Shown here: positions 41,091 through 50,029 of the stretch, in pieces | How positions within the stretch are numbered: position 1 is the first letter of the stretch | Layout: each line of letters begins with the position of its first letter | Assembly (NCBI GenBank): GCA_002189035.1 | Contig: NEEC01000004.1 | Span: 1,984,001 to 2,048,000 of the forward strand | Direction of reading: 5' to 3' | DNA from: Utricularia gibba | Taxonomy: Eukaryota; Streptophyta; Magnoliopsida; Lamiales; Lentibulariaceae | DNA: 64,000 bases | Program-made: the position numbers and the translations under genes | Notes under the pieces: generated by a model | Told to the model about the DNA's origin: nothing | The model's database searches: none | What the model saw: the letters and a program-made list of their open reading frames with translations, nothing else

Positions 41091-42189
41091 ATGTGACATG
41101 GGTATTGTCTATTTTTACTTTATTTATGGCTTTAAAAATAGTCGAAATGAAATTGCTCTTGCAAGTGCATAATATTTATGTGACCATGAATATAGTAACA
41201 AATAATGATTTTAGCACAATATAGGAGAGTTTGTTATCATTTGAAAGAGTAGGAGTGAATTTAAACACTTCATAATGCAAATGATTATTTTAAAATGTGT
41301 CATGCTTCAACTAACTATATGATCGAAAGAGAGTGAGGTTTATTGAAAGTGAGACACAATGTTTACCAAATGTAATGTTGATGTAATGTATAAAATAATA
41401 TAATATCAATTTACAAATGAATCATATGACTCTATAAAAGATATCAACAAAGACTTCACAAATAACTACTCAATCTCATGTTTGAATGTGTTGAACATAA
41501 CTTCCTAAATGCATCTCTATTTATGGCATTTTTTTTATTTGGAACAGATTCAATGAAACAAGAGAGGAGATGAGAATGATAAACATTTAGGCCTCGTTTG
41601 TTAGGTGGGTTTAAATTAAAAGGATTTATATTATTTTATTTTATTATATCCCATAAATAATTGTTTAGAATGAAGTATGTGTTTGGTAGATAGGGTTCAA
41701 TAATATGGGATTATCAATTTTGTATGTTTGTTAGAAGTACTTATACATAGATTTTCAATACTAGAAAATATGAATTCTCTAATATACTCTTTATGTATAA
41801 TATAATATCTTATTATCCTATTTTGATCCCACATGTAGAAACGTGAGATTCAGATTGGGGAATTCGAAACCCTCGAGTTGTGATGTGCATGGATCTTTGG
41901 CTCATGCAACTCTGGGAGCAAGTTTGATCTATCAAAAAATTGGGTATTGGGTGATTCAACAGGTATTTTTTTCTCAAATTTGAGGCGTTTATTTCATTTG
42001 CTGGTTGAATGACCTTAACCACGTGGATTGAGCAACTGGGTGTTAGTATGTGTGATGTTTTTTGAGTAATATGGCTGTGAATTGTGCCCCTGAAACCCAT
42101 ATAATGTTGTTATACTTCTTGTGCCATATTGAGCTACATGTGTATTGTGGTTTTGTCATGGGTTGCGCACTTAGGTGTTGGTTGCAGAA

Positions 42190-42835
42190 ATGGTTAGAGC
42201 AAATGTGGCTATAACAAAATGTGGGAGAAGTGGTGATAACATTAAGACCAAAAGACAGTGGAAACCTGATGAAGAGCGCTTTCTGATCCACGCTCTAAAG
42301 GATATCATTCAAGGTGGGTGGAAAGTAGAGAATGGATTCAAAGGTAATTACCTTCAAGCACTAGAGGAGGCGTTCCTCAAATTGTGTCCCGGCTCAGATA
42401 TCAAAGGCACTCCCCACATGCAATCAAAGATTCATAACTGGAAAAAAGATTACAATACCCTATCTGACTTTCTCAACAAGTCTGGTACCGGGTATGATAA
42501 CTCAACAAACACAGTAGATGCTAGTGAGGATTTGTGGGTGGAGTTCAAATAGGTATTGTTGTTCTAATATGTATGTAGTAGGTAGTTCCTATGAGATTAT
42601 TAATGTACACTTGTGGATTACATGTGCAGCACAATGAGAAGGTGTACAATTTGATGCGGTTTAAGCGTTAGCCTTACTATCCAGATTGGTGCATCATCTT
42701 TGGCAAAGATAGAGCCACTGGAGAATTTGCAGAATGTGTCCCTGATGCTGCTAATGCAACACAACAGGCTGATGACTCTATGGCTAGTTTGGAACAACCA
42801 TTGCATCTTCTTGAGTATCCTGAAGTGGAGGTTGA
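42190..42835 (+). pseudogene. Harbinger ORF1 with Myb/SANT-like DNA-binding domain
   Basis: From MVRANVAITKCG the frame contains a trihelix-like Myb/SANT domain: QWKPDEERFLIHALKDIIQG, FLKLCPGSDIKGTPHMQSKI, then NWKKDYNTLSDFLNKSGTG. It continues after a probable short intron (42550-42630) with PYYPDWCIIFGKDRATGEFA and DDSMASLEQPLHLLEYPEVE. ORF1 proteins bind the termini and help the transposase enter the nucleus. A TAG interrupts the second part where a Trp is expected (just before PYYPDW), and the frame breaks near an A-run at 42840. The Athila-like LTR begins at 42973, cutting off the C-terminus. Confidence 0.75.
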
Positions 42836-42972
42836 CTCGGAAAAAAAATGGTGACCAAAGATCACATGATGCATCCTCTACATATGAAGAGTATCCCTCA
42901 TTAGGAGGGACTCCTGGAGGCCGCACAGGTAATCACACTACACCACCCGTGGTGATGAACCTAGGAAGAAGA

Positions 42973-44319
42973 TGTTAAGTGCCATTTTCTTACTATTTCT
43001 TAGGTTTTTTTTATGTGTAATTGCGATTAGAAGTGTCTAATTAGGGGGTCTATAATATGAGATTTAGGTTTTTATCTAGTTTAGGGTAATTATCCTAAAT
43101 CTTGTATTGTATGTAATAATTTTACTAATTTTAATTGAGTTTTTCTAGAGGTGCACACGTGGCAGAATGTGAGAGAAAGAGGGTATCAGATGACGACAAA
43201 TTGGATCTTCCCAAGCTGACATTCCCTTGATTTCCAGAAGATTGCAGACGCCTAATCATGAGCCTTGACGTGCGGAACACGGGAGTCTCTGGCAGGTGGC
43301 ATCATTAGCATACCAGTGTCAGACGTTGCTTGCAAGTCATCCCAAGTTAACCAGAATCATAGGGACACGAAAGCTCAGACTCTCAATGAAGTTCAGTTCT
43401 GTTCAGACAAGTTTAGTTTTTCTTCAGTTTTTAGTTTTAGACTTTTGTTTCTCTCTCTAGAGGAATTTTCCTCTAGCTTCTTTCTAGAACCTTGTTTTGC
43501 TTTCTTTAGTTTGTATGGCCGTTCGAGGCTAGAAACTTTTATTTATGGGTAGGAACACTACTAGATCTATGTTTCGTTAGCTTATCTTCACATTTTCTCT
43601 GAATCCGAACGGGTTTCGTATGTCTTCGCGCGACTATGTTGTAGTCTTTCTGTAACAGTCCCCTTATTTAAGATTCATGGCTAGCTAATCACTAACCGCG
43701 GGTTTTGGAGAGGAGCAAGGTGGAGAGCACCAACTCACGCCCTTTTGGCAGGAGGAAGATTACGCTTTGTTTGTGGCCGTACCTCAGGATCAATGGACAG
43801 GTAGTGACCTCGTATCTGGACTCATTGGGTCATTGACAACACTCGGGCACACGCGCGCAATTCGGCCGTGAGGGTACGTTGGCACGACCTCTTATTCTCA
43901 CGTTCGTCCAAGGAGGAGCAACATCGGGCTTTTCCCGTACCTTCTTGCAAGAGTGTAAGAGAGGGTAGGAAATTCCTTACTCCTATAACCGGGTACTCAA
44001 GAAGACCAGAGAAAAGTGAAGACGCAATGAACATAGCTGGACAGGATTCCAAGCCCAGGAACAATTACTTTATTTAAGGTTCATCACTTATTTATTTCAG
44101 TTGTCTATTCAAAACCCCCATTGTTTTCTTACTCAAGCTTCATCATTAACGTTTCTCGCACCTTTTACTTTCTAAACCGTTTACAAATCGTGACAGTTTT
44201 ATTCGGGGTACCTCACCTTTCACTTAAAAACAACTCCCTGTGTTTGACACCCGTACTACGCTTTTGTGTTTTACGAGTTTTAAAAATATTAAAATTTGTT
44301 GTGGAAACGACACGCATCA
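42973..44319 (+). mobile_element. 5' LTR of an Athila-like Ty3/Gypsy element
   Basis: It starts TGTTAAGTGCCATTTTC and ends GGAAACGACACGCATCA, immediately before the primer-binding site and gag. It is the same family as the solo LTR at 15441-16690 (shared ends, gtagtgacct segment, cctataaccgggtactc-like segment). About 1.35 kb long. I found no 3' partner in the window, so the element is truncated. Open frames inside it are not genes. Confidence 0.82.
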
Positions 44320-44325
44320 AATTTT

Positions 44326-44343
44326 TGGTGCCGTTGCCGGGGA
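44326..44343 (+). other. Retrotransposon primer-binding site (tRNA-Asp type)
   Basis: TGGTGCCGTTGCCGGGGA lies 6 bp after the LTR end. It matches the TGGCGCCGTTGCCGGGGA site used by Athila-type elements, complementary to the tRNA-Asp 3' end as I recall it, except for one C-to-T change at a CpG. It fixes the LTR boundary and the plus-strand orientation. Confidence 0.85.
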
Positions 44344-44490
44344 GTTGAATTTTTTTGTGTTTGGTGTTGTGTGTGTGAGTTTCGTTTTATCTTCCTTTTT
44401 GTTTTGTTGTCTTTTTCCTTTTTCTTTCTGTTTTTCTTCCCTTGTTGTTTCTTTCACTTGTTTCCGTTTCTGCTTTGTTTTTCTCTTTTT

Positions 44491-45075
44491 ATGCAGCCAG
44501 GTCCACCAAGGGCTCGTCCAAGCCTGAGATCTTATAGAGAAGTTTTATATCCTTTGGACTAGGAGGTGGAACGAAACTTTCCAGTACTAGTTCCCACTAA
44601 CTATGGACCAGCACTACGGACCATCAAGGAGGAAATCACTGCAAATCATTCAGACCGTCCCTTATGCATCATTTTCGATGGAGAAGAAGACTATGGGCTA
44701 CGTCCTTACATATTCCAGATGCTTCCAAAGTTTGATGGAAGGGAAAATGACGACCCCAATCGTCATCTATGTGAGTTGCACACGGCTTGTGCATCCATGC
44801 GCCCCAAGGGAGCTATGGAGAATCAAGTCAAGCTTAGAGTATTTCCCTTCAGTCTTAGCGAATGAGCTTTGGAGTGGCTCTATGGACTTCCACCTTCATC
44901 TATCGCCACATGAGAGCAGATGGTTCAAAAATTCTTGGATCGCTATGCACCACTCTGAAGAGCTTCAGCCGGAAGGAGAGCCTTGACTACCATGATGCAG
45001 AGTGAAGGAGAAAACTTGCAGGAGTATTATGATCGTTTCAACCGAATCTACAACTCCTACCCTCAGCAATACTGA
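44491..45075 (+). pseudogene. Gypsy gag remnant
   Basis: Broken frames from MQPGPPRARPSLRSYREVL continue as RNFPVLVPTNYGPALRTIKE, QMLPKFDGRENDDPNRHLCE, LRVFPFSLSE, ALEWLYGLPPSSIAT and MMQSEGENLQEYYDRFNRIY. This is the order of a plant retrotransposon gag domain (E-DPN-HL, FPFSL--A--WL--LP--SI-T). Stops interrupt it at least at three places (near 44561, 44863 and 44910). Sequence after about 45100 is no longer recognisable. Confidence 0.78.
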
Positions 45076-45387
45076 AGTCATCTTGAGTAACCCCATAAAG
45101 CTACAGCTTTTTCTGGACAACAATAGTGCAAGACGTGAGGTTATGGTGGATGGGATTGTGAGAGGTCTATGATGTCGCTACACCTCTGTTTTTCCTTTGT
45201 TGTTTTGATCATATCCACTTATGATGTCCATGTATCATGACGATCATTTTGCTTTGCATGACAATATTACGCTTTACATGTTTGCCATGAGTAGCTGATA
45301 TCTGATTTCAGTTTGTGGTGCTGCTGGATATGTACACGGGCGTGGTTTAATCATAAACAACGCCCGTATTCCCTTGTTTAGTATACC

Positions 45388-45565
45388 TGATCCAAATTGC
45401 TCCTAAGGGTCGAATGTTAATTAAGATTTAAAATAAATAAATATCCACTCGATCCAAAGTATACCTAAGGTTCGAAGGATAATAAAAATACTAAAATAAA
45501 AAAAGGTTCCATCCGAATCATACCTAAGGATCGAATGGTAATAAAAATATTAAATTAAGGTATTA
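45388..45565. repeat. Three direct copies of an about 61-bp unit
   Basis: Units start with (g)atcc at 45389, 45451 and 45511. Each contains gatccraa, then cctaaggrtcgaat, then aataaaaata-taaaat. The same unit is repeated four times at 47411-47646. Confidence 0.75.
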
Positions 45566-45718
45566 TTTTAAATGAATATGCATATAAGAATATTTGAGAA
45601 TTTATGTTTTGTTTTTTGTAATTTATGAAGTGTATATTGAAAAACCCATGATTACAGTAGAGTGAGTAACATCATAATGTTCCGAAATTCAAACCACTGT
45701 TACATGCCATGAATGTTC

Positions 45719-46870
45719 AAGCAAGAACTTTGTAATAATCCCACATTGGGTGATTAGCATCTAACAGAGGTTGTCCAATTCGTGCATGCTTCACGAAACT
45801 CGGTATATCATTTGCTTCTAATAGACTTGAAGGAAGATGCGTATTTCTCCACACTCAGCTAACACAGCATCTCTTACATCCTGGTATGACGTCGGGAAGA
45901 AAGCGTAATCATGCTGTGACACAATAAGACCATGGCCTAAATGTCAGTAGGAAACATGCGTACCAGACCATATGATCGCAAATAGACTTAACTGGGTTTC
46001 TGATGGACTTGAACGGGGAGTCGTCAATAAGTAAGGTGTTGGTTGCATCATACCGACCCAAGAAGCCTTCATCTTACCCCCAAATCCGCGACAACTCCTT
46101 CAACACAGCAGCTTTTGACCTATTATCATGCACACGTACATGCGTTTCAGTGGTCTTCGATGCATCCCATATGAAAGCCAGCAAGGTGTCTGCATCAGGC
46201 CCAAACATGCACTTGGTGATCTCATGTAGTTGTGCACTATAGAACATAGACAGATGTTAGAGCATTAGATATCAGCACATGCTCTGCAGATTTCATGGAG
46301 TGGGATTTACGCACCCCTCGAAGACCATATACCGACATCAAAGTTTGCAAGACACCATTCGATGAACTCACGAGCAAAGGGCCTGAGGAAGACTGCCAAA
46401 CCAAAAAATCGATTGGTTGAACATGACACAGCCATGAGACAATGTTACGGTGTCTTACTATTTCTCCTATATATCACAGCGTCTTGTTTTCGATGCAACC
46501 TTTGGTACTTGACTTTGAAGACAATGTCTGCTAGCACTCCGTTGACATCCAACACAAGGAGCTTGTGCACTTGTTGCCTGGGCGATGAACTGGGGCCAAT
46601 GTATACCCATCTACTTTCATACCAATTTAGCCTTGCACGTAGTTGGGCATTCTCTTCCAGGATTTTGTCCACATCCACACTAGCAGTTGGTTGCGGGTTG
46701 TCTTCCTCCACATTTCTCCCTACATCCTGTTGTCGATCAGATGCAAATGCTAGTAACATCTCTTCCTCAATGATCACGTCGTCAGGTTTTGATCGCTCGC
46801 GTATCACTCTTCCTTGACCACACCAGAAGTGGCGAGTACCGGCAGCGTCCACCACAGGTGATGAGATCAT
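45719..46870 (-). pseudogene. FCP1/NIF-like (HAD superfamily) phosphatase pseudogene inside the Harbinger element
   Basis: On the minus strand, 46870 to about 46460 encodes a linker, a short coiled coil (KILEENAQLRARLNWYES) and then HKLLVLDVNGVLADIVFKV, the first HAD motif. A second exon near 46400-46300 gives RPFAREFIEWCLANFDVGIW. A third (from about 46250) gives TLLAFIWDASKTTETHVRVH, DNRSKAAVLKELSRIWG, then after a TAA DEGFLGRYDATNTLLIDDSP. The end is HDYAFFPTSYQDVRDAVLAE, a one-base shift near 45860, and ANDIPSFVKHARIGQPLLDA to a stop at 45719. This is a plant FCP1/NIF (CTD-phosphatase-like or TIM50-like) fold. The stop and frameshift mark it as dead. Its intron remnants suggest DNA-level capture, not retroposition. 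Confidence 0.75.
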
Positions 46871-46937
46871 GGATGCTATACATTATCCCAATGAAGATAA
46901 ATGATACAAGATCAATAATCCTCCATTGATTTCAGTT

Positions 46938-47063
46938 GGGCCAATCACTAGATCAAGAGCAAAAATGAATCAAGAAGTGCTTAAGAGGTTATGGGCCAAT
47001 CAACCAAACTATGAGGTGTTGAGCATGGAATTCAACATTCTCAAAGTGTATCAACTTGATTAG
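46938..47063 (+). pseudogene. Small Gypsy pol C-terminus remnant
   Basis: The plus strand reads GPITRSRAK, then NQEVLKRLWANQPNYEVL to a stop. GP(I/M)TR(S/A)RA(K/R) followed by a Leu-rich helix is common near the end of plant Ty3/Gypsy polyproteins. It may belong to the same insertion as the LTR and gag at 42973-45075, or to another one. Confidence 0.4.
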
Positions 47064-47192
47064 AGAAGACCCATTACTATCAAATACATTATTATTACTA
47101 CTTTTCATCTATTTAAGAAGGCCTTACTAATTTAAACCCATAAAGGAAACATTCTGTAATTTATAATCATAAATTTTGATCTTGGTGTATAC

Positions 47193-47784
47193 CAGGCACT
47201 GCAAAAGTTTTGTCTTGGTGTCTACAAGACACCCCTTGTAGGCACTGCGAAACGCTGCTCTCAGTGTCTGAGAGACATGCGTCCCAGGCACTGTAGAATG
47301 CTGCTCTCGGTGTGTGGAAGACACGTTATTTTAATATTTTTACTAGCATTCGATCCTTAGGTATCGTTCAAATCGAGTGGATATTTGTTTATTTTAAATT
47401 TATATTAATGCTCGATCCAAAGTATACCTAAGGATTGAATGCTAATAAAAATATTAATATTAAAAATACACGCTCGATCCGAATCACATCTAAGGATCGA
47501 ACGCTAATAAAAATATTAAAATTGAAAATACACGCTAGATCCGAATCACAACTAAGTATCGAACGCTAATAAAAATATTAAAATTAAAAATACACGCTCG
47601 ATCCGAATCACACCTAAGGATCGAATGCTAATAAAAATATTAAAATAACGTGTCTTCCACACACTGAGAGCGGCATTCCGCAATGCTTGGGACACATGTC
47701 TCTCAGACAATGAGAGCAGTATTTTGCAGTGCCTACAAGGCGTGTCTTGTTGACACCGAGACAAAACTTTTGCGGTGCCTAGTA
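47193..47784. repeat. Large inverted repeat (fold-back) with tandem units in arms and loop
   Basis: The left arm (about 47193-47377) reads forward as ccaggcactgcaaaagtttt, then tgtggaagacacgttatttt, then gcattcgatccttaggt. The right arm (about 47601-47784) is its reverse complement with scattered differences; by eye it matches at the large majority of positions over about 185 bp. The roughly 220-bp loop consists of direct copies of the 62-bp unit. A transcript through this locus would form a long hairpin. Confidence 0.85.
47411..47646. repeat. Four direct copies of the about 62-bp unit (loop of the fold-back)
   Basis: Units begin at gatcc at 47413, 47475, 47538 and 47599. Each reads ctcgatccgaatcacac, ctaaggatcgaa, gctaataaaaatattaaaat, then a taaaaatacacg linker. 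A further copy lies inverted in the left arm (about 47328-47377). Same family as 45388-45565. Confidence 0.85.
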
Positions 47785-47896
47785 CATTGGTCTTCCAGGC
47801 ACCGATAGCGGCGTATTGCGGTGCTAGGAACACAATTCATCCAGGCACCGAGAGCAAATATTCAGAGTGCCTAGAATGCAATTCTTCCAATGTACA
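47651..47896. repeat. Five-plus tandem copies of an exact-period 46-bp unit
   Basis: Unit starts are at 47651, 47697, 47743, 47789, 47835 and a partial one at 47881, always 46 bp apart. Each begins (tg/gg/at)tc-tcc and contains a ggcaccgagagc-like block and a gcggtgcctag-like block, which can pair as a short stem. The left arm of the fold-back carries about three inverted copies (47193-47327). Confidence 0.85.
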
Positions 47897-48230
47897 TGTA
47901 GATAGTGTAGAGCATGTAATAGTTGCACCCAGACGTATGAGCCAACAGTGTGTGGAAACTTGAAGCATCCTTCAACCCTATCATATCTTTCTAGGAACTG
48001 CAAATTCTAGTTTCCAGTGACTGTATCACATTTGCTGTGACAACAATCCAGCATAAATAAGACAGTTCACCGTAGGAAATAACCCAATGTTAGAAGCAAA
48101 TCATGTCTGAAATAACTGATGTGTTTGCACAATATGAATACAACACAACGCAATGCTTATCAACTATTGGAAAATGAAATAAAATATCTTTAAGCCAAAC
48201 CAATAAAATATCAGGATTCATTAGTACACC

Positions 48231-49656
48231 TTATACCCTTCTTTGTGTGGTCTCTCTCCATTGCGCAAACATTATCTCCGCCATTGAATCCCGCCACTGT
48301 GTCCACTCCTCTGAGTTTCCTATAGAGGAAATATGTTCATCATCTTCATATTCCTGTGAATCCGGATTGCGGTACTCTTCCGGAATGACCTCTTCCCATG
48401 GATTAGTTGGCATTTCTCATCGAATAAAATTGTGAAGCAGGGCACATGCAAGTATGATACGAGTTTGCGTTTTAATAGGATAAAAACTATAACTTCGTAA
48501 AATACCCCACCTCATTTTCATTAGACTCCATGCCCTCTCAATAACATTCCTTGCAGAAGTATACCGCATGTTGAAATATTCTTTCGCATTCTATGGAGCC
48601 ATGGACCTAGCACCCCACTCTTTCAGATGGTACCAAACACCTTTGTAGGGTACTAGAAATCCCTCTGCGTTTGTGTAGCCATTATCACACAAGTAATAAT
48701 GCCCTACAAAAAAATGGAATACATGAAAGTTAGTCATAACTATGGATTTCTACACATTGTAAGCACCTACCTTTGCGTACAGTGAATGCTCTTTGTCGAC
48801 AAACTACATCTCGCAGCGCCCTGCTATCAGCAACGGATCCCTCCCAACTGGACAACAAATAGATGAACATGAGCTTATCATCATACACTCCTAGCACATT
48901 AGTGGACACGATTCCTTTACGATTCCTCCACTTTGGTTTATCCTGATTCTTGACTTTCACCTGAAAATATGAACCATCCAATGCACCCAAGCAATTCTGA
49001 AAATTAGAGCAGAAAGTTACAACATGCAGAATACACGTTGCACATCCACAACTATGAAGAAAAATCTTCTTGCATACCTCAAAAAATTTGAAGCTAGAAT
49101 TGGGATCAGAAACATCAATTGGCATAGGTGTCTTAAGTAAATTTTGGTGCAATGACAGCACCGCCGACAATACCACATTGAAATATTTGGACACTATCCA
49201 ACTGCTTTGCATGAATTCAAATTTCTGTTGCCTTGTTTTTCTGTGATGACCTAAAATACCCAAAAACAATGCAACTTCCTCTGGAACATCGACATACCTT
49301 GAAATGGTTAGTCCACCATTACTTCGAAGAACATAACATGACTTGTTGAAGACATCTGCACTTAATCGTAAGTTTTCAAGACAAGCACTCCTTGAATCAA
49401 ATAACAAGGCAGTCAAATGCTCTATTTGTCGTGGTATCTTTTCTCGGTATGAGAACCGAATTCTCCTATCGGTTGGTGTACAACAGAAATGCAACATTAT
49501 AACAATCATAACTCGCATAATACATAGATGCTGACCAACACAATGTGCCGTAGCAAGGGCAGCCAAAATAATCTTCTTTGAAACCATTGCAACAACCTCA
49601 ATAAGCAACGCACAATCTACTGCAATGTTCGGAAAAAAAAAAACCGACTCCATCAT
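48231..49656 (-). pseudogene. Harbinger (HARBI1-like) DDE transposase, nearly complete but interrupted
   Basis: Minus-strand exons are about 49656-49078, 48996-48771 and 48703-48231. The first holds a helical N-terminus and TISRYVDVPEEVALFLGILG. The second holds NCLGALDGSYFQVKV (first catalytic Asp), KWRNRKGIVSTNVLGVYDDK and WEGSVADSRALRD (second Asp). The third holds YYLCDNGYTNAEGFLVPYKG, YFNMRYTSARNVIERAWSLM (catalytic Glu) and RWGILRSYSFYPIKTQ. The whole DDE_Tnp_4 nuclease core is recognisable. Two stops remain, both explicable by C-to-T change: a TAG after ARSMAP and a TGA after LHNFIR. The true start is uncertain. Confidence 0.85.
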
Positions 49657-50029
49657 ATGCGAAACAAAAAATAAGTACTCTTGGCTTAAATTGAAGTATG
49701 GGTTTTCGTTAAAATATCAGAATTCGAATTCACTCACCATATACCTAGAAAAACCCAACAGATTTGTGTTGAAGAGGATGAACAAATACACAGATTTAAT
49801 GTTACGAATTTTCTTATGGAGTAGAAGGGTATTATCGACCAAGTTGTATTTGTGTGAGATGGGTTTCTCAAAACCCACCTCACACGTGGGTTTTGTGAAA
49901 CTAGCAGCTGCAGGTTTAATTCGGGATAATACAAACCCTTGTGTTTTACTAAACCATCCCAACAAACACATACAACTCTTTTTACTCAAGGGTTTAGAGG
50001 GCTAAACCCACCTAACAAACGAAGCCTTA

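Follow-up and report, generated by a model that had tools for sequence, protein, structure and literature searches.

The window, that is the whole stretch of 64,000 nucleotides of Utricularia gibba DNA that was analysed, contains a fold-back structure which is not free-standing but sits inside an 8.4-kb DNA transposon (41590–50026), between the 3′ end of the transposase gene and the start of a NIF-like gene on the reverse strand. The features of the element are given below, with the strand where one was assigned; loci elsewhere in the genome carry L numbers.

41587–41589: left target-site duplication (TSD), TTA, matched by 50027–50029
41590–50026: PIF/Harbinger-type transposon, degenerate copy, with ends common to other copies, terminal inverted repeats, a TSD and the domains Myb_DNA-bind_3 and DDE_Tnp_4
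41590–41613, forward strand: left terminal inverted repeat
42175–42552, forward strand: Myb/SANT-like gene fragment, ORF1-type (PF12776, 47.5 bits, cutoff 23.6)
42973–45070: stretch of about 2.1 kb, taken as a nested insertion, absent in L021–L024, L027 and L035
45313–45558: second block of 62-bp-type repeats, between the Myb and NIF-like genes
45717–46862, reverse strand: remnant of a NIF (FCP1/SCP-type) phosphatase-like gene (PF03031, 20.2 bits, below the cutoff of 21.8)
46863–47128: dispersed LTR-like repeat, occupying the place of about 1.1 kb of the element in L022
about 47987–48031, reverse strand: decayed hairpin counterpart, from alignment with L046, L047 and L048
48231–49716, reverse strand: DDE transposase gene remnant with interrupted frame (PF13359, 34.3 bits, cutoff 24.8, on 48417–48590)
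50003–50026, reverse strand: right terminal inverted repeat, followed by TTA

The second gene of PIF/Harbinger elements is of the Myb/SANT type, and the PF12776 match places such a gene in the window element. Its terminal inverted repeats measure 24 bp with one mismatch, within the 14–25 bp given for PIF/Harbinger in PMC2213677. The TSD, of the TTA/TAA form, was read at both ends in three copies: TTA on both sides in the window, TAA on both sides in L024, and TTA on one side with TAA on the other, thus not identical, in L027. The DDE_Tnp_4 match of 34.3 bits comes from one piece of the transposase, the larger piece scoring 19.4 bits, below the cutoff. PIF/Harbinger elements need two proteins of their own (PMC2836001). 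Because of the 24-bp ends, the TTA TSD and the DDE_Tnp_4 and Myb/SANT genes, the element was classed as PIF/Harbinger, of which it is a damaged copy. No description of it was found among the best-ranked matches in the openly licensed literature.

The putative insertion at 42973–45070 is partly present in L025 and L029, and partial relatives of this stretch were seen in L025, L029, L030, L033 and L037. Next to the repeat block at 45313–45558, other copies have a hairpin cluster that is absent from the window copy. The NIF-like gene shares 42% identity over 182 amino acids with a gene at L049, whose protein gave no Pfam match; a DVNG-type motif is presumably that of a phosphatase. For the repeat at 46863–47128, 46 genome matches were found, the window's own included and the best others at 88–94%, and three pairs on the same strand, separated by about 5.9 kb, point to an LTR.

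The fold-back itself was resolved into the following parts.

47190–47324: left arm, three 46-bp units, inverted (inverted-repeat alignment and unit reading)
47325–47423: left arm, 62-bp-type part of the stem (inverted-repeat alignment and fold)
47410–47646: 62-bp tandem array of 3.8 copies, the outer part in the stem and the inner part in the loop
47551–47784: right arm of the inverted repeat
47651–47880: five 46-bp hairpin units in exact register (lag identity)

A preliminary description had reported a fold-back built from 46-bp and 62-bp units, an observation confirmed at 47190–47880. The arms are inverted copies of one another as it had stated, but their length is 234 nt and not about 185 (47190–47423 against 47551–47784), with 196 of the 234 positions complementary (84%), so that the repeat is imperfect. 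The best 100-nt inverted match reached 91 of 100, against 46–52 in ten shuffles. RNA folding of 47190–47900, proposed at the time as a check, gave −380.5 kcal/mol and a z-score of −29.5, and DNA folding of 47150–47920 a z-score of −28.4 (20 shuffles each). The exact 46-bp spacing also held: five units follow each other from 47651 to 47880 without an indel, starting at 47651, 47697, 47743, 47789 and 47835, and the self-identity at lag 46 is 0.605, compared with a maximum of 0.417 over lags 20–99 in 1000 dinucleotide shuffles. This array extends about two units past the right arm. The 62-bp array (90% matches) is present as described but is not confined to the loop, since 47325–47423 pairs with 47551–47650 in the stem and this part of the alignment takes in 62-bp-type sequence.

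The hierarchical layout proposed for the locus is also found, each 46-bp unit being itself a near-palindromic hairpin of about TTCYAGGCACYG, 8–18 nt and GTGCCTRGAA. The complementary blocks that had been assigned to every unit are recognisable as a dyad but imperfect: GGCACCG and CGGTGCC occur together in exact form in none of the five units, and one exact half is present in three of them. No Rfam family matched in the window at gathering score, though none would be expected for a hairpin of this sort; the tRNA scan was empty. A plasmid relative was ruled out after a search without matches. An identity as transposon terminus, also raised earlier, was rejected, with the element ends lying at 41590 and 50026 and the fold-back about 2.1 kb from the nearer one.

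The genome, 100.09 Mb in 516 contigs, was searched with 47190–47900 and yielded at least 276 matches. Both arms were found in nine copies, namely the window, L021–L027 and L029; with nine genome places carrying both arms, an assembly artefact, one of the conditions named earlier for discarding the structure, was rejected. When these copies are folded, pairing involves 116–132 of the first 135 bases of the arm, whatever the partner, and the fold energies of the plus strand range from −289 to −534 kcal/mol. The palindrome of L021 is longer, with about three 62-bp units per side and a centre of about 120–130 bp. A second form was seen in L033, L035, L041 and L042, which carry a direct 46-bp array in this spacer without the long inverted repeat; the sequence retrieved for these loci (stretches of 3.2 kb for L041 and L042) contains nothing that matches the 62-bp array. 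L043 and L044 contain broken arrays, without palindrome and without 62-bp match.

In alignment with L033, L022 contains 487 additional bases, at a point where L033 overlaps with itself by 75 bases. The additional DNA consists of an AT-rich stretch of about 200 bp, three inverted units and 62-bp units; the AT-rich stretch is dispersed, with at least 40 genome matches, palindrome copies included. A tree built on the 3′ region of the transposase has a branch that separates eight palindrome copies from four array-only copies, with a support of 86/92 and presence in 92% of 200 bootstrap trees. L043 and L044 were left out of this tree; when they were kept and counted as array-only, the values were 83/79 and 88%. 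L029, in which the region is deleted, is absent from both trees. Because the palindrome copies group together, a single origin of the palindrome is the simplest reading, with moderate support. The form with the direct array is probably the earlier state, a direction of change that we infer.

The 62-bp units have a distribution of their own. They adjoin stretches of 1.0–1.15 kb common to L028, L030, L031, L032, L036 and L040 (83–93%), of which L036 and L040, 99% alike over 8.6 kb, were counted as one. Target duplications of 9–10 bp were read by eye at L031 (TATAAGCAAC) and at L036 and its near-identical duplicate L040 (CTTCATGGG), and one with a single mismatch at L028 (CCCTAGTAT/CCCTAATAT); L030 has one end, and no clear duplication could be read at L032. 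Mutator elements make a target duplication of about 9 bp. Duplications of 8–10 bp are linked to Mutator in PMC4079207 as well, and by its target-duplication mark alone the family with the 62-bp units would be Mutator-like. Opposed 62-bp units were also met in a tandem satellite of 2.4 kb. Since the units occur both in the Mutator-like family and in the satellite, the 62-bp part of the fold-back is common to other families, and these repeats are thus found in Mutator-like elements, in Harbinger elements and in the 2.4-kb satellite. The satellite unit comprises two opposed 62-bp arrays, with a period of about 2.4 kb in C349, C215 and C402 (2606–2614 kb); L034, L038 and L039 are loci of this satellite. 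Among the matches listed, the other small contigs, C183, C196, C209, C210, C253, C257 and C404, showed paired matches only.

The 46-bp unit could be followed outside the family. L046, L047 and L048, distant Harbinger relatives that are 69–76% identical in the main matched stretches, have a like hairpin just downstream of the transposase, with z-scores of −2.9 to −7.1 for five folded hairpins; five other folded units gave −1.35 (L041) to −4.6. Because these relatives carry a hairpin at this place and the window has a decayed counterpart, the 46-bp array probably grew from one hairpin downstream of the transposase. A covariance model built from 13 units matched in this spacer and, in other copies, also in a second cluster that lies between the Myb gene and the NIF-like gene. 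With a strict pattern, 10 matches at 7 places were obtained across the genome; the reversed pattern matched nowhere. Of the seven places, four belong to Harbinger copies (L047 with two, L048 and the L026 copy with one each), and the others are 56-bp arrays at L049, L050 and L051, of 8.7, 3.9 and 8.6 copies. The arrays at L049 (1500–2110) and L051 (3230–3780) are flanked on one side by a NIF-like gene and on the other by a hAT transposase, both genes pointing towards the array. At L050 a gypsy-type gene that encodes an SH3_Tf2-1 domain lies close to the array (1874–2092), and L051 holds in addition a 144-bp tandem array (745–1147) with the hairpin core within its unit.

Divergence between the arms was compared within and between copies. 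The arm-to-arm identity within a copy was 0.903 (n = 9), and identities between copies were 0.898 for left arms, 0.884 for right arms and 0.884 for left against right. The excess within copies over the cross-copy left–right value was significant by permutation for the nine copies (p = 0.005), which would allow for some correction between the arms or a pressure common to both; the excess was gone inside a subclade of seven copies (p = 0.26). The arms change mostly independently. Private changes were counted at columns in which 80% or more of the other rows agree; 77 affected one arm, against 5 that were alike in both arms, three of the latter in L022 and two in L029; L022 may have undergone one arm-to-arm conversion. 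Differences between the arms comprised 50 that are wobble-pairable in plus-strand RNA, 27 that are so in transposase-sense RNA, and 41 transversions. Left and right arms were not sorted apart in the arm tree. Site diversity in seven palindrome copies (L027 and L029 not included) was 0.103 and 0.076 for the stem halves of the units, 0.117 for the loops, 0.090 for the spacers and 0.075 for the flank; the stems were no less variable than the flank in this set.

The tests of arm change and diversity gave no clear sign of selection maintaining the long palindrome, with weak constraint or exchange between the arms still possible, and the long stem would appear to have no selected function. Because most arm changes are one-sided and the stems are no less variable than the flank, the long hairpin would seem to be a side effect of template switching, a process also proposed for the Medicago PIF/Harbinger elements with 60-bp repeats.

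These observations can be joined into one course of events, which we consider the probable explanation: the fold-back would be a non-coding PIF/Harbinger spacer that was turned into a palindrome by one rearrangement and has been decaying since. Originally the spacer probably contained a single hairpin behind the transposase gene, from which the direct 46-bp array would have been amplified. In one lineage, a single rearrangement would have brought the 200-bp dispersed repeat, inverted units of the array and 62-bp units into the array, and the same event would have duplicated about 75 bp of the 46-bp array, giving rise to the palindrome. The process was most likely template switching, during repair of a transposon gap or at a fork stalled at the hairpin array. 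After cut-and-paste excision, the gap left behind is filled in by copying a template, and abortive repair of such a gap at a hairpin array would give an inverted copy, captured pieces and the 75 duplicated bases. The palindrome would then have spread with the element, changed in its number of 62-bp units and be losing its complementarity.

We infer a repair process as the source of the palindrome, the sequence alone having no power to separate gap repair from other routes of template switching. Twelve clean internal deletions were picked by hand (a gap of at most 10 bases in the copy and at least 50 in the reference, the palindrome event of L033 excluded). Six of them have an end in repeat regions, which hold 8 of the 24 deletion ends and make up 19% of the reference (p = 0.07, not significant); the ends are thus not clearly concentrated at the repeats, and their placement is at most suggestive. 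The recombination hotspot considered in the preliminary description fits the inverted duplication and the variation in repeat number, although deletion ends are only weakly enriched at repeats; overall, its interpretation was partly supported.

A different account would make the palindrome a self-silencing or regulatory hairpin, in which read-through from the transposase would produce long dsRNA and Dicer would cut this into siRNAs, mostly of 21–22 nt. The very stable fold, its position directly downstream of the transposase and its presence in nine copies agree with such a model. The mostly one-sided arm changes speak against it, as do the wobble differences, of which fewer suit the transposase-sense strand than the other strand (27 against 50), and the lack of an Rfam match, and we hold it to be improbable. 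In U. gibba, DCL3 is truncated and small-RNA reads are 52.8% 21-nt and 14.4% 24-nt (PMC8333044); therefore any siRNA products of the fold-back would be expected to be mainly of the shorter classes, with few of 24 nt. That a Foldback-type transposon of its own is nested within the Harbinger element is, in our judgement, very unlikely. Drosophila Foldback (FB) elements have terminal inverted arms of tandem units around a loop, a build that the tandem-unit arms and tandem loop resemble, and the 62-bp units would belong to a Mutator-like family with 9–10-bp duplications. The outer arms are, however, the array of the host element itself, into which the array-only copies run, and the gained DNA is flanked by an array duplication of about 75 bp instead of a target duplication of 8–10 bp; among the matches listed, the combination of 46-bp and 62-bp units was found in Harbinger copies only. 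A stand-alone Foldback element was likewise rejected, on the internal position of the palindrome and the same array duplication in place of a short target duplication. The arms of FB elements are terminal, whereas those described here lie within a Harbinger spacer, the likeness being that of inverted tandem-unit arms around a loop.

Two further proposals concern the unit rather than the palindrome. The unit hairpin may be the functional part, a dyad placed at gene ends within the transposon and serving as a signal for 3′-end formation, an insulator or a protein-binding site, which would be compatible with the rearranged-spacer explanation; we regard this as a possibility, though a rather doubtful one. 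It would be favoured by the like hairpin downstream of the transposase in L046, L047 and L048, by the model matches in both spacers flanking the NIF-like gene and by the arrays of L049 and L051, each with a NIF-like gene on one side and a hAT transposase on the other. G-U pairs also prevail over A-C mismatches on the transposase-sense strand (36 against 6 of 165 cells), a count made on the unit nearest the transposase in 15 sequences that are related and not independent. Set against this, covariation in the unit stem did not exceed that of shuffles, stem variation within the family is no lower than that of the flank, the fold of L041 is weak (z = −1.35) and the position could be explained by common ancestry. 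A wider version, that a portable spacer hairpin common to unrelated DNA transposons of this plant was tandemly amplified by itself at three or more periods (46, 56 and 144 bp), lies at gene 3′ ends beside Harbinger and hAT transposases, flanks the NIF-like gene and acts on 3′-end formation or gene separation, would be a speculative extension and seems to us quite unlikely. If functional, the unit would be a gene-spacer part common to Harbinger and hAT elements, and as a hairpin beside transposases of two superfamilies it is a part worth experiment. Alternatively, by analogy with CACTA elements, which have subterminal repeats, the 46-bp units might be binding repeats for the transposase. Tandem dyad units inside a DNA transposon would suit this proposal, but they lie about 2.1 kb from the right end and the model gave no match near the ends of the window element at E-values up to 1, so that it appears hardly credible.

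The locus is best described as a PIF/Harbinger element whose internal tandem repeats have been rearranged. The preliminary description had known of no named family with this layout; the carrier belongs to PIF/Harbinger, and a subfamily with 60-bp tandem repeats is presented in PMC2213677. In the account given there, MtPH-A6-4 of Medicago truncatula resembles the present element in being a PIF/Harbinger transposon whose tandem repeats, about 60 bp long, vary in number and have the opposite orientation in some copies. Grzebelus and co-workers explained deletions and repeat changes in the Medicago elements by abortive gap repair aided by the 60-bp tandem repeats (PMC2213677). According to the same description the repeats of MtPH-A6-4 are subterminal, measure 60 bp and contain a triplicated AAACNNCTTATT motif, whereas the array studied here is internal, has a hairpin as its unit, forms one long palindrome and has units common to another family. 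Membership of MtPH-A6-4 was rejected: with one mismatch allowed, AAACNNCTTATT is absent from 47190–47900, and its 14 matches in the whole window compare with 13.2 expected by chance.

Tetris of Drosophila virilis, as portrayed in PMC4079207, is similar in having tandem repeats inside inverted repeats and duplications of 8–10 bp. Its repeats have seeded satellite arrays, and the 62-bp units likewise occur in the 2.4-kb satellite; the inverted repeats of Tetris are the ends of the element, whereas here they are internal (PMC4079207). The U. gibba locus offers a long palindrome formed inside a transposon, probably with one origin, and the apparent earlier form is still present in the same genome, so that the change from a tandem array into a palindrome can be followed at the level of single bases. 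A different palindrome of 172 bp (87%) was observed at 667–837 of L048, where it lies in the spacer that follows the 3′ end of the transposase in this distant Harbinger relative.
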